Shown here in pieces: positions 12,958-27,465 of a stretch of DNA of 28,026 nucleotides. The notes below the pieces were generated by a model. The model made no database searches. It saw only the letters and a list, made by a program, of their open reading frames with translations, and was not told the origin of the DNA. The stretch's first letter is position 1. Each line of letters starts with the position of its first letter. The DNA is from a bacterium. GTDB taxonomy: Bacteria; UBP6; JAFGXH01. Both the position numbers and the translations under genes were made by a program. The stretch spans positions 1 through 28,026 of the forward strand of contig JAMOQH010000173.1 of NCBI GenBank assembly GCA_027064085.1, read 5' to 3'.

Positions 12958-14373
12958 ATGCGTTATATCCTTTCAATGTTAATTTTAATTACTTCACTAT
13001 CGTTTTTTACGATAGCATGTGGAGGAGACACTACCAGTAGTAGTGATGCTTGTTCAGCAACAAATACTACAGGTACTTGTCCTACTGGAAAAACTTGTAA
13101 TAATGGTGTTTGTGTAGACAACACTACTTGTACACCTAGCTGTACAGGTAAAACATGTGGTGATGATGGTTGTGGTGGATCTTGTGGTTCTTGTAATGCA
13201 GGTGAAACTTGTAATGCAGCTGGTACTTGTGAAACAGGAACATGTACACCTAACTGTGCAGGTAAAGTATGTGGTGATGATGGTTGTGGTGGATCTTGTG
13301 GTTCTTGTAATGTAGGTGAAACTTGTAATGCAAATGGTACATGTGAAACAGGAACTTGTACACCTAACTGTGCAGGTAAAGTATGTGGTGATGATGGTTG
13401 TGGTGGATCTTGTGGTTCTTGTAACATGGGTGAAACTTGTAATGCAAATGGTACATGTGAAACAGGAACTTGTACACCTAACTGTGCAGGTAAAGAATGT
13501 GGTGATGATGGTTGTGGTGGATCTTGTGGTTCTTGTAATGCAGGTGAAAACTGTAATGCAAATGGTGCATGTGAAACAACTAGTGCTGACGGTGAATTAG
13601 GTGGAAACTGTAGTGAGCAAATCGCTTGTATAGATAACACTAATCTTTGTTTAGGACCTCAAGGTGGTCAAGCAATTTGTTACCAAGCTTGTAATGGTGC
13701 AAGTGATACATCATGTACACAAAATAATTATACATGTCAAAATGTTGATAGTATTGGTTTTGTATGTTTACCTGACCCAACAGGAAATACTCCTATTGGT
13801 GGTGATTGTTCTAGTGAAGCATGTGTTGAAGCAGCTATCTGCTTAAATCCAGATGCTCCAACCTGCTATGAAAAATGTAATGCAGCAACAGATACTTGTA
13901 CAACAAGTGGTTATACTTGCCAAGATACTGGTAATGCAGATATAGGTTGGGTATGTGCTCCACATAGTGAGCCAGGAACTGCACAACCAGGTGAAACATG
14001 TTCTGCAGAAAACAACTGTGTTGAAACAGCAATGTGCTTAACTAAACAAGGTGAAACAACAAGTACTTGTTACGAAAAATGTACTGCTGCAACAGATACT
14101 TGTTCTCAAGCAGGTTATGCTTGTGTTGATACAGGAGTAGCAGGTATTGATTGGATTTGTATGGAACAAGCAGCACCTGGTACAGTACCTGTTGGAGGAA
14201 CTTGTGATGCACAAAATAATTGTGTTGCAGAAGCTTCATGTCTTGGACCAGAAGGTGGACCTTATACTTGTTATGAAAAATGTGACCCTGATACAGGAGG
14301 AACATGTTCTCAAGCAAATTACACTTGTGAAGCAGTTGCAGAAGCAAATTTCTGTATGCCTCCACAACAATAA
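12958..14373 (+). CDS. Cys-rich repeat lipoprotein
   Basis: A 471-residue predicted surface or outer-membrane lipoprotein. The N-terminus MRYILSMLILITSLSFFTIACGG is a lipoprotein signal with a loose lipobox (TIAC, Cys21); Gly at +2 would favour outer-membrane sorting. After a Ser/Thr spacer come four 38-residue units (about 57-208) with the core CGDDGCGGSCGSC. Four units of about 64 residues follow, starting near 215, 281, 345 and 413, each with the pattern G-x-x-C...C...C-Y-x-x-C...Y-x-C...C. All cysteines seem paired within units, so many disulfides in an oxidising compartment are expected. The first motif is common in myxobacterial and related secreted proteins and has no established function known to me. 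The gene is monocistronic: own promoter, AGGAGG, and a strong terminator. It is clearly less AT-rich than its neighbours, as Cys/Gly codons demand. Confidence 0.85.
   Translation: MRYILSMLILITSLSFFTIACGGDTTSSSDACSATNTTGTCPTGKTCNNGVCVDNTTCTPSCTGKTCGDDGCGGSCGSCNAGETCNAAGTCETGTCTPNCAGKVCGDDGCGGSCGSCNVGETCNANGTCETGTCTPNCAGKVCGDDGCGGSCGSCNMGETCNANGTCETGTCTPNCAGKECGDDGCGGSCGSCNAGENCNANGACETTSADGELGGNCSEQIACIDNTNLCLGPQGGQAICYQACNGASDTSCTQNNYTCQNVDSIGFVCLPDPTGNTPIGGDCSSEACVEAAICLNPDAPTCYEKCNAATDTCTTSGYTCQDTGNADIGWVCAPHSEPGTAQPGETCSAENNCVETAMCLTKQGETTSTCYEKCTAATDTCSQAGYACVDTGVAGIDWICMEQAAPGTVPVGGTCDAQNNCVAEASCLGPEGGPYTCYEKCDPDTGGTCSQANYTCEAVAEANFCMPPQQ
13126..13581 (+). repeat. four tandem 114-bp direct repeats within the Cys-rich lipoprotein gene
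   Basis: Units begin at 13126, 13240, 13354 and 13468, all with a start like AC(T/A)TGTACACCTA, and are exactly 114 bp (38 codons) apart. Units 2, 3 and 4 are nearly identical at the DNA level, including synonymous positions, while unit 1 is slightly diverged. This points to recent duplication or ongoing homogenisation. The copy number is likely to vary between strains. Confidence 0.92.
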
Positions 14374-19032: not shown

Positions 19033-20988
19033 ATGCATTTAATTTCATTAAACGATGTATATAAAATAAACGGAGATAAAGAATTATTTAAAGATGTCAC
19101 CCTAGGTATTAAAAAGGGAGAAAAAATTGCTCTTATTGGTATTAATGGAAGTGGAAAATCAACATTTTTAAATTTAGTTTCTCAAAAAACAGATGTAGAT
19201 AAAGGAATAATAACAACAAATAATAAATATAAGTATGCTTTTTTAGAACAAAATCCAGAATATTCAAATGATGAAACAATTCTAGACTATTTATTTTCAG
19301 AAGAAAGCAAAGAAGTAAAACTATTAAAAAGATATGAAGAAATTACAAATAAAGAAGACTTAAGTCAAGAAGACCTAGAGTTGCAAGAAAAAATAATGGA
19401 AGAAATGGAAAAAAATAATGTTTGGGCCTATGAATCTAAAATTAGAGAGATACTAACTGCTTTATCCATTAATGATTTGCACCAAAAAATGGGTGAATTA
19501 TCCGGAGGAATGATAAAAAAAGTTGCCTTGACTAAAACCTTATTATCAGAATCAAATATGATAATTTTAGATGAGCCGACCAACCACTTGGATATAGAAA
19601 GTATAATATGGTTACAAAGTTTTTTAAAAAAAACCGATAAAGCAGTTTTAATGGTTACTCATGATAGATATTTTTTAGAGGAAATCTCAAATATTATTTT
19701 TGAAATAGATGAAAAACAAATATTTATATATTATGGAAATTATTCATATTATTTAGATAGAAGAGCTGTAAGAAAAGCCGAAAATCAAAGAGCTGAGGAT
19801 AAACTTGCTGCAATTATGAAAATGGAATTAAAATATGTTAGACAAGGAGCTAAAGCAAGAACATCAAAAAATAAATTAAGAATGCAAAGATATGCAGAAT
19901 ATTCGAATAGAGAAAAAAAAGAAACTGAAAAGACACTAACACTTGAGGTTAATGAAAAAAGGCTTGGTAAAACAATACTTGAAATCAGTAATATATCTAA
20001 ATCATTTAATGATAAACTAATAATAAAAGATTTTAGTTACAAATTTAAACCCTATGAACGAGTTGGAATAATTGGAGAAAATGGAACAGGTAAAACAACT
20101 TTTATAAATTTAATTACAGAAAAATTAAAGCTAGATTCAGGAAATATAAAAAAAGGGATAAATACCAATTTCTCAATATTCTCACAAGATAGTAGAGATG
20201 TTTTTACCGATTTAGATAAAAAAGTAATAGAGTTTATAAAAGGAGATAATGAATTAATTGAATTAAGAACAGGAGTAATTATTTCTGCCACTCAAATACT
20301 AGAAAGATTTTTATTTCCATCCGTATTACATTACACTCCAATAAAAAATTTATCGGGAGGAGAAAGAAGAAGACTTCATTTATTGAAAGTTTTATTAAAT
20401 AATCCTAATTTCTTAGTTCTAGATGAACCAACTAATGATTTAGATATAAAAACATTAGCTATTTTAGAAGATTTCTTAGAAGACTTCCGAGGAAATGTAT
20501 TAGTTGTATCCCATGATAGATACTTTATGGATAAAATTGTTGATAATTTATTTATTTTTAAAGGAAATGGAGAGATAGAAGAAAGTGTAAAAACATGTTC
20601 TGAATATTTCGAAATAAAAATGAAAGAAAAAAAACAACATCATCGTAGGAATAAGGCGGTGAGTATGGATAAGGCGATGAGTATGGATAAGGCGATGCCT
20701 TATCCTACGACAGCGGTGCCTTATCCTACGACAGAGATGCCTTATCCTACGAAAAAGCCTAAAAAGCTAACATATAAAGAAAAAAAAGAATTAGAAACTA
20801 TTGAAAGTGAAATAGAAAATCTAGAACTAGAACAAGAAGAACTTGAAAATAGATTTTCAACTAATAATTATGATATACTAGAGCTTCCAGACTTGAATGG
20901 AAGATATGAAAATATAAAAAAAGAGCTAGAATATAAATATAATAGGTGGGAAGAACTAGAGGAGATAAAAAATGGTGGAAATAAATAA
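19033..20988 (+). CDS. uup: ABC-F family ATPase, Uup type, with a repeat insertion in the C-terminal linker
   Basis: 651 residues with two ATP-binding domains and no membrane part. NBD1 has Walker A GINGSGKST (36-44), signature LSGGM (156-160) and Walker B ILDEPTNHLD (178-187). The ABC-F inter-domain helical linker follows. NBD2 has GENGTGKTT (348-356), LSGGE (440-444) and a second LDEPTNDLD. Residues about 577-651 (LTYKEKKELETIESEIENLE ... YNRWEELEEI) are the Uup-type C-terminal coiled coil. ABC-F proteins bind the ribosomal E site or, for Uup, also branched DNA and late ribosome assembly. Residues about 537-575 are unlike the rest: 6- and 7-residue repeats (MSMDKA, MPYPTT) encoded by an inverted-repeat DNA element, in frame. 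RBS AGGAG is 7 nt from the ATG. It overlaps pfk by 17 bp. Confidence 0.92.
   Translation: MHLISLNDVYKINGDKELFKDVTLGIKKGEKIALIGINGSGKSTFLNLVSQKTDVDKGIITTNNKYKYAFLEQNPEYSNDETILDYLFSEESKEVKLLKRYEEITNKEDLSQEDLELQEKIMEEMEKNNVWAYESKIREILTALSINDLHQKMGELSGGMIKKVALTKTLLSESNMIILDEPTNHLDIESIIWLQSFLKKTDKAVLMVTHDRYFLEEISNIIFEIDEKQIFIYYGNYSYYLDRRAVRKAENQRAEDKLAAIMKMELKYVRQGAKARTSKNKLRMQRYAEYSNREKKETEKTLTLEVNEKRLGKTILEISNISKSFNDKLIIKDFSYKFKPYERVGIIGENGTGKTTFINLITEKLKLDSGNIKKGINTNFSIFSQDSRDVFTDLDKKVIEFIKGDNELIELRTGVIISATQILERFLFPSVLHYTPIKNLSGGERRRLHLLKVLLNNPNFLVLDEPTNDLDIKTLAILEDFLEDFRGNVLVVSHDRYFMDKIVDNLFIFKGNGEIEESVKTCSEYFEIKMKEKKQHHRRNKAVSMDKAMSMDKAMPYPTTAVPYPTTEMPYPTKKPKKLTYKEKKELETIESEIENLELEQEELENRFSTNNYDILELPDLNGRYENIKKELEYKYNRWEELEEIKNGGNK
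20641..20751. repeat. in-frame palindromic/tandem repeat element inside uup
   Basis: Left half: CGTAGGAATAAGGC (20644-20657), then two exact 18-bp units, GAGTATGGATAAGGCGAT (20661-20678 and 20679-20696). Right half: three copies of GCCTTATCCTACG starting at 20697, 20718 and 20739, i.e. a 21-bp period. The halves are inverted relative to each other. The centre GGATAAGGC-GAT-GCCTTATCC (20685-20705) is a perfect 9-bp stem with a 3-nt loop. The reading frame is preserved throughout, and the composition is visibly richer in GC than the surrounding gene. Confidence 0.92.
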
Positions 20989-25850: not shown

Positions 25851-27377
25851 ATGAAAATAAAAATTTTAAAAGAAAGAGAAGAATTGAAAAAAGAAAATAA
25901 TATATTAGTTCCTATTTTTGAAGAACAAGTAGAAACTCAAAAATTTACTACAATGCTTACATTTTTAACACCATCTAAAAAATCAACACTAGAGGAATTA
26001 GTAAAGAAATGGAGTTTTAAAGCTAAAAAAGGAGAGTTGTTTCAATTTGATTATGAGGATAACAAAGAATTAAAGACTTTATTTTTATATGGATTAGGTA
26101 AAAAGGATAAATTTAAGTTAATAGGTTTTAAAAGAGCTATGTCTCAATCCTTTAGAGCATTATCTAATAAAAAACTTTCTACATATTCAATATTTGTTCC
26201 TTGGACTACAACATCTTGGAAATTAGATTCTGTTTTAGCTAAAGTTTATTTGGGTACAGCATTAACTAATTATAAATTTGATAAATACATCAAAAAAGAT
26301 GAAGATAAAATAGAATTAAAACAGGTTTCCTTATTCATAAATGCCTTGTATGAAAAATTTAAAGATAGTGAAGTCAAAAAATTAGTAAAAGAAAATAAAG
26401 TCATTGCAGATGCTATTGAAAATTCAAGAAATTTACTTAATGAAACTCCAATGAATATGTATCCAGAAGTTTTAAAAGACTCTGTTTTAGAATTATTTAA
26501 AGGAAGAAAAGGAGTAAAAACTAAAGTGATGGATTTTGAAGAAATTAAATCCAAAGGAATGAATTTATTAGCTGCAGTTGGAATGGGAAGTGATAAAAAG
26601 CCTTATTTTGTTGAAATTTCTTATAAAAGTACTAAAAAAGGAGCAAAAACTTTATCTCTAGTAGGTAAAGGTATCACTTATGATGCTGGTGGATATTCTT
26701 TAAAGCCGGCTCAACACATGGTTGGAATGCACATGGATATGGGTGGCAGTGCAATGATGATAGGAGTAATGGATATTATAACAAACTATAAACTTGATTT
26801 TAATGTAAACTGCTATTTAGTGATTGCAGAAAATCTAATTTCAGGTTCTGCATATAAAGTTTCTGATGTTATTACAGGATATGGTAAAAAAAGTGTTGAA
26901 ATATTAAATACTGATGCAGAGGGTAGATTAGCTTTAGCAGACGGTATTGCTTATGCATGCGACAAAGGAACTGATAAATTAATTGAAGCATCTACTTTAA
27001 CGGGAGCTGTTTTATCAGCATTAGGACAAGAAATTGCAGGTATAGTTGCAAATAATGATAGTTTTGTGAAAGACTTTAAAGAATCCTACGAAAAAACAGA
27101 AGAAAAATTCTGGCAATTACCTGCAGAGGAAAATTATAAGGAATTAATTAAATCAAAGGTTGCTGATTTAAAAAACCTCGGAGGTCCTTATGCAGGAACA
27201 ATAACTGCAGGACTATTTTTAAATGAATTTATTACAGAAAATGTTGATTTTATGCACTTAGATATTGCAGGAGCAGCAATGCTTGAAAAAGATATTGATT
27301 TTTATAATATGGGAGGAAGTGGATTTGGTATTCAAGCTCTTTCTCATTTTATATTAAAAGGTAAAGTTTTTAATTAA
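25851..27377 (+). CDS. pepA: leucyl aminopeptidase, M17 family
   Basis: 508 residues, normal length for cytosolic M17 aminopeptidases. RBS AGGAG is 5 nt from the ATG. The N-terminal half (1-170) is the variable macro-like domain. The C-terminal half has all the active-site residues expected from bovine LAP numbering: Lys273 and Asp278 in GKGITYDAGG, Lys285 in SLKP, Asp296 in HMDMGG, and Asp355, Glu357 and Arg359 in NTDAEGRL. These bind two metal ions and the bicarbonate/catalytic site. It should release N-terminal residues, leucine preferred, in peptide turnover. Some bacterial PepA also bind DNA in recombination or regulation; nothing here shows that. The gene ends just before tandem hairpins. 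Confidence 0.94.
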   Translation: MKIKILKEREELKKENNILVPIFEEQVETQKFTTMLTFLTPSKKSTLEELVKKWSFKAKKGELFQFDYEDNKELKTLFLYGLGKKDKFKLIGFKRAMSQSFRALSNKKLSTYSIFVPWTTTSWKLDSVLAKVYLGTALTNYKFDKYIKKDEDKIELKQVSLFINALYEKFKDSEVKKLVKENKVIADAIENSRNLLNETPMNMYPEVLKDSVLELFKGRKGVKTKVMDFEEIKSKGMNLLAAVGMGSDKKPYFVEISYKSTKKGAKTLSLVGKGITYDAGGYSLKPAQHMVGMHMDMGGSAMMIGVMDIITNYKLDFNVNCYLVIAENLISGSAYKVSDVITGYGKKSVEILNTDAEGRLALADGIAYACDKGTDKLIEASTLTGAVLSALGQEIAGIVANNDSFVKDFKESYEKTEEKFWQLPAEENYKELIKSKVADLKNLGGPYAGTITAGLFLNEFITENVDFMHLDIAGAAMLEKDIDFYNMGGSGFGIQALSHFILKGKVFN

Positions 27378-27382
27378 TTCTC

Positions 27383-27419
27383 CCCACATCCGTGGGTTTT
27401 AACCACATCTGTGGTTTTT
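27383..27419 (+). terminator. tandem hairpin terminator after pepA
   Basis: Two near-identical small hairpins: CCCAC-ATCC-GTGGG (27383-27396) followed by TTTT, and AACCAC-ATCT-GTGGTT (27401-27416) followed by TTT. The cores CCACATCCGTGG and CCACATCTGTGG differ at one base and are 19 bp apart. They lie 6 nt past the pepA stop and would terminate plus-strand transcription before the convergent cdd gene. Confidence 0.75.
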
Positions 27420-27465
27420 ATTCCATTTTTAAAAAATAAAGCTTAGTTATTTAACTTAAACAAGT

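Follow-up and report, generated by a model that had tools for sequence, protein, structure and literature searches.

An in-frame palindromic array in a bacterial uup gene, probably one copy of a REP-type family that resides mainly in coding sequence

Introduction

Intragenic REPs have been described for both the GTAG class (in O. terrae, Thauera, X. oryzae and others) and the CGTC class, and copies inside genes are still counted as REPs (PMC3733652). The same paper places RPE-4 and RPE-6 of Rickettsia in the CGTC class, RPE-1 being longer. The GTAG foot is recognized by TnpAREP (PMC8266576). In subclass 2.4, REPs are found in frame inside the tnpAREP genes themselves, between HUH and Y, and REPs with a double foot are also known (PMC6006769).

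Here we analyze a palindromic array in the uup gene of a 28,026-nucleotide stretch of bacterial DNA (contig JAMOQH010000173.1; "the window" below) together with its kin in the same genome. Like the intragenic GTAG REPs of PMC3733652, these are short GTA(G)-footed palindromes lying in frame in ORFs and often doubled or grouped; in both cases they encode 20–80 amino acids, perhaps in flexible linkers, and replication and repair genes are among the hosts. However, most of the published REPs are intergenic and those in ORFs are a minority, whereas the main type found here (type I) lies inside genes at nearly every locus, keeps to a single frame and has GTAA as its commonest foot.

Results

The palindromic array in uup

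The product of the host gene has ABC_ATPase_Uup as its best NCBIfam match (E 7e-136, under the curated cut-off of that model), and Pfam finds two ABC_tran domains and an ABC_tran_CTD in it. The array (Table 1) lies just before the latter domain, in the type of inter-domain linker that a first-pass annotation of the DNA had taken to be the most tolerant site. That annotation had also counted two 18-bp and three 21-bp units; the latter number stands, but the 18-bp units are three as well. The later 18-bp units are 78–83% alike to the first, and the 21-nt units are their inverted complement. The array was correctly described as inverted about a perfect 9-bp hairpin. The repeat search found six perfect 9-nt inverted pairs GGATAAGGC/GCCTTATCC. 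The motif GCCTTATCCTACG occurs at three places in the window, where 0.14 are expected.

Table 1. Features of the uup gene and its palindromic array (window coordinates)
Feature	Position	Strand	Basis
uup-type ABC-F ATPase gene, host of the element	19033..20988	+	ORF, 651 aa
Whole palindromic array inserted in uup, in frame, coding approximately RRNKAVSMDKAMSMDKAMPYPTTAVPYPTTEMPYPTK	20645..20754	+	
Three 18-nt units (starts 20645, 20663, 20681)	20645..20698		Direct reading, repeat search, TRF
5' arm unit 1, GTAGGAATAAGGCGGTGA, GTAG foot	20645..20662	+	Repeat search
5' arm unit 2, GTATGGATAAGGCGATGA	20663..20680	+	Repeat search
Intact central REP unit, foot GTAT, 9-bp stem GGATAAGGC/GCCTTATCC, loop GAT	20681..20706	+	
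Central hairpin, 3-nt loop	20685..20705		
Three 21-nt units (starts 20692, 20713, 20734)	20692..20754		
3' arm unit 1, GCGATGCCTTATCCTACGACA	20692..20712	+	Repeat search
3' arm unit 2, GCGGTGCCTTATCCTACGACA	20713..20733	+	Repeat search
3' arm unit 3, GAGATGCCTTATCCTACGAAA	20734..20754	+	Repeat search
ABC_tran_CTD (PF16326), directly 3' of the element	20764..20964	+	Pfam, residues 578-644
Peptide stretch SMDKAMPYPTTAVPYPTTEMPYPTK, part of Uup in the region of the insert			

The strand that carries the array folds as RNA into one long hairpin of -53.5 kcal/mol, compared to -29.3 ± 3.7 kcal/mol for shuffled sequences (z -6.6; none of 200 shuffles was as good). Two other early observations were borne out: the ORF is open throughout the insert, and the base composition departs from that of the surroundings, the GC content being 48% at 20650–20759 versus 21–30% around it and about 25% in the gene. 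Alignment with the Uup proteins of 16 relatives, which are too distant to provide an exact empty site at this or the other loci, shows that the block is absent from all of them and that their linker is 20–25 residues shorter and unrelated in sequence. Programmed translational bypassing was considered and rejected, as the insert leaves the frame open and about 50 unrelated genes carry the element in frame.

A family confined to one genome

A BLAST search of 31 genomes with 111 bases of the array gave 19 further matches in its own genome and nothing convincing outside it. We also built a covariance model from 16 aligned units (foot GTAN, 9-bp stem, 3-nt loop), which was initially trained mostly on in-gene copies. 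Scoring 150 of about 1200 candidate places, it returned 112 at E<=1 in the 3.65-Mb genome, the central unit of uup being the top match in the window (45.4 bits). Among the 30 relatives there was essentially none: 26 genomes, both of the same family included, had no match at all. Merging of the two strands left 108 places at 66 loci, the genes being called from ORF length and Pfam matches. To check the census, we read 966 kb (26% of the genome), made up of 211 kb of contigs chosen irrespective of hits and of long contigs. There were no strong new loci in this sample, and hence the census is nearly complete. The assembly itself is incomplete; it consists of 195 contigs, several of which are broken at palindrome arrays. 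Such arrays are seen at the contig ends of loci L116, L122, L143, L144, L153, L154 and L159. They therefore probably break the assembly and are under-counted.

Two simpler searches were less productive. The pattern GCCTTATCCTACGACA, with two mismatches allowed, gave just two weak extra matches in the same genome, where BLAST and the covariance model found far more. A scan of 84,980 genomes for the exact motif gave 17 scattered single matches against about 120 expected by simple chance, and so there is no sign in it of a family outside this genome; viral contigs did not contain the exact motif.

Pairing, feet and arrays

The nine stem pairs of 52 in-gene units make up 468 cells, of which 422 are Watson-Crick versus 353 ± 6 with shuffled partners, a comparison that ignores the relatedness of the units and is thus not a strict probability. 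The covariation count on 16 units agrees with it. One stem pair displays all four Watson-Crick types, with Ala..Pro, Ser..Thr, Thr..Ser and Pro..Ala codons, and in another example of compensation a synonymous change from GAT to GAC is matched by a change from CAT to CGT, which replaces His with Arg. What is conserved is the base pairing, while the peptide varies.

The feet of these 52 units are GTAA (36), GTAG (10), GTAT (4) and GTAC (2). At 37 loci only a core of about 28 nt is held in common, and the identity of the flanks (0.31–0.33) equals background; 11 loci have a longer common unit of about 75 nt coding for (N)KSSDKxxSKDKTxSYPTKNTNGEK. Many loci carry extra arms, mostly the 3' arm (for example five in contig C32 and seven in C69), in steps of 18, 21 or 24 bp, due to which the frame is kept in the arrays. 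Both arms are tripled in uup alone.

Location, orientation and reading frame

The loci fall into two types. Type I, that of uup with the foot GTANGG, has 56 loci, 49 of which lie in ORFs in one orientation and frame, five in ORFs in other frames and two between genes. The classification was re-read by hand; the two intergenic loci are C137:1605 and the C189 array, which is counted as such despite an overlap of its last unit with the open frame that precedes the next gene. Ten loci are of type II (GTAGAGAC...GTCTC, mostly with a double foot), and half of these are intergenic. The C189 locus (L072, 3793-4279) is the family's only large intergenic cluster, and its REP units are joined by repeats of the ATATGATA type.

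The type I frame reads S-K/R-D-K/E-A/S/T/P-x-P/T/S/A-Y/H/R-P-T, i.e. SKDKAxPYPT and variants. The canonical element has the palindromic 3' end TAC, with which the other-strand frame for the same hydrophilic peptide is closed by TAG. Its remaining open frames give VRIRRCLIL- or SRIRHRLIL-like peptides that are hydrophobic or contain Cys. We rejected stop codons as the sole cause of the frame lock of the present copies, as 91 of 96 units are open in opposite phase 0 and yet a single locus uses it. Most of the lock is probably accounted for by tolerance of the hydrophilic frame. Nevertheless, if all good-frame copies survived and no other genic ones did, 69% of the copies would be genic in a genome that is 93% coding, while 49 of 51 are (P 1.6e-6). 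Intergenic copies are thus fewer than expected, and insertion and tolerance alone do not fully explain the distribution. Possible reasons for the shortage are a preference for A-rich linker DNA as a target or spread from genic sources.

The hosts named by Pfam scans include dnaX, yidC, ftsK, tilS, cheA, exbD, an amidase, a secretin, protein kinases and flagellar proteins, among others. In 26 of 27 host proteins the insertion is outside every Pfam match, exbD being the exception; 12 insertions inside domains would be expected from domain coverages that are approximate and were read off by hand (P 3e-7). The dnaX genes of the relatives have no DKAMPYP motif in the linker.

RAYT genes with embedded palindromes

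A protein query revealed four RAYT genes of one kind in the genome, recovering those with inserts that are missed by PF01797 alone. Their matches to NCBIfam REP_Tyr_transpos score under the curated cut-off, which the insert probably explains. In three of the four (C192, C185 and C182:61.5k), REP palindromes lie in frame in the HUH-Tyr interval, after MP[ND]HIH, and the first palindrome copy in each has the foot GTAG. The C192 gene contains six 63-bp units with the uup-type hairpin and an inverted unit (L073, 3016-3395), and the other two (L192, C182 at about 61.5–62.3 kb; L190, C185 at about 19.1–19.8 kb) contain a REP, an inverted REP and low-complexity spacers (DKLDKLDK, NIKDNIENKKN).

REPINs (PMC3116915) resemble the C185, C192 and C182:61.5k genes, in each of which a spacer is bracketed by a REP and an inverted REP. 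However, REPINs are dispersed units located mainly between genes and are not known to form part of the reading frame of a RAYT. The gene layout is also that of TnpAREP/RAYT subclass 2.4 (RAYT group 4; PMC6006769), in which palindromes of variable length occupy the RAYT frame between HUH and Tyr and double-foot REPs are also present, as in type II here. This likeness is one of gene layout, and there are differences: the dispersed copies described here mostly have GTAA, and the foot of the stem has two, not three, consecutive G-C pairs.

Six relatives have RAYT genes with palindromes of their own, different ones, in frame at the same post-HUH site (L201 in G002, L199 in G003, L200 in G006, L196 in G012, L195 in G013 and L202 in G027); no palindromes were found before the HUH motif in these ORFs. 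The G003 palindrome, GAGACGTTTCATGAAACGTCTC, is present in other genes too, mostly in one frame coding for VETFHETSLQ, and roughly one in three of the 15 places read lies between genes. Unrelated sequences thus show the same in-gene behavior, and this speaks against any single peptide having a role.

Another palindrome, AACAAGGGGTTGCAACCCCTTGTT, flanks and overlaps the end of a different Y1 transposase gene of the original genome (L076 in C32, 1339-1362 and 1883-1906; L241, 2162-2185). The two may represent a second transposase-repeat pair.

Discussion

The likely explanation for the uup block is that it is an intragenic copy of a REP-type element of the RAYT kind, similar to those of TnpAREP subclass 2.4, which has been multiplied locally. 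Its family numbers about 100 copies in the genome. Like GTAG-type REPs, the family is a multi-copy hairpin palindrome, and the genome has a RAYT gene carrying the same palindrome; GTAG-type REPs are mainly extragenic, whereas 49 of the 56 type I loci are in frame in ORFs. RAYT would be the mobilizer, copying the elements as folded single-stranded DNA. One copy would have inserted into the flexible Uup linker and persisted because one orientation and frame gives a short hydrophilic peptide of the SKDKAMPYPT kind. Its arms may then have been multiplied three-fold, in steps of 18 and 21 bp, by hairpin-driven slippage or repeated insertion. The peptide would be a tolerated and presumably neutral passenger, the base pairing being what is conserved. 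The feet count against the REP reading, as most of those in genes are GTAA and not GTAG (the uup array has GTAG as its outer foot and GTAT in the intact unit), and E. coli TnpAREP accepts no change in the GTAG foot (PMC8266576).

That nearly all copies are genic and in one frame, 11 of them with the longer coding unit, could also mean that SKDKAxPYPT is a functional linker module (a spacer, a protease site or a binding motif) that spread as a useful peptide, with the palindrome incidental to it. This is unlikely, since compensatory pairs alter the peptide (DKA..PYP, DES..THP, DKT..SYP, DEA..PHP) and keep the pairing, the host proteins are unrelated in function and compartment, and an unrelated palindrome with an unrelated peptide behaves alike in the genes of G003. 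Control at the RNA level, in which the mRNA hairpin would delay ribosomes at domain boundaries or determine how stable the mRNA is there, seems more improbable still. The fold is indeed very stable, nearly all in-gene copies have one orientation relative to transcription, and the sites are domain boundaries. However, there is no pathway common to the hosts, the element is specific to the lineage and missing from orthologues, and its orientation and frame go together with the open hydrophilic frame.

There is hardly any room for an ordinary tandem duplication of uup linker codons without a mobile element: it would agree with the 18- and 21-bp tandem units and with how common linker slippage is, and may account for the extra arms but not for the family, as a palindrome with the same kind of foot is present at 65 other loci, intergenic sites and RAYT genes among them. 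We consider it equally far-fetched that the lineage acquired a CGTC-class REP or an element of the Rickettsia RPE type, to which the first-pass annotation had likened the insert. RPEs too are selfish-looking in-frame palindromes in many unrelated genes, at tolerated sites in ORFs (PMC3733652). The view of the insert as a selfish palindrome that stays in frame is supported, and both checks set by that annotation turned out in its favor: the genome has further copies, and Uup orthologues lack the block. Nevertheless, its closest kin are REPs of the GTAG type: the foot resembles that of this class and palindrome-bearing RAYT genes are present in the genome, whereas RPE-4 and RPE-6 are placed in the CGTC class, for which no transposase is reported, and RPE-1 is longer (PMC3733652).

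Nor is such an element as novel as it had first seemed, because REPs in frame inside genes, including RAYT genes, have been published (PMC3733652, PMC6006769); what is new is a REP population that is almost wholly intragenic and frame-locked. More tentatively, this REP lineage may have adapted to living and spreading in coding sequence, with a hairpin that in one frame encodes a harmless linker peptide, RAYT genes that hold source copies in their own frames, and new copies surviving mainly in genes, so that inter-domain linkers are rewritten genome-wide. The family is a clear case of a small pairing-constrained repeat that also codes for part of about 50 unrelated proteins, among which several are usually essential (dnaX, ftsK, yidC, tilS). 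It shows how selfish DNA can rewrite protein linkers and makes it testable why REPs normally stay extragenic. It is also a warning against taking such peptides for conserved domains when they are met in proteins of uncultured bacteria.

Two further repeats were observed in the window. Four near-identical 114-bp tandem repeats with 93% matches occupy 13126-13578 in a gene for a Cys-rich, lipoprotein-like product (CTPNCAGKVCGDDGCGGSCGSC...), and two 19-bp repeats, CCACATCCGTGGGTTTTAA, are located at 27384-27420, just 3' of a gene that ends at 27377.
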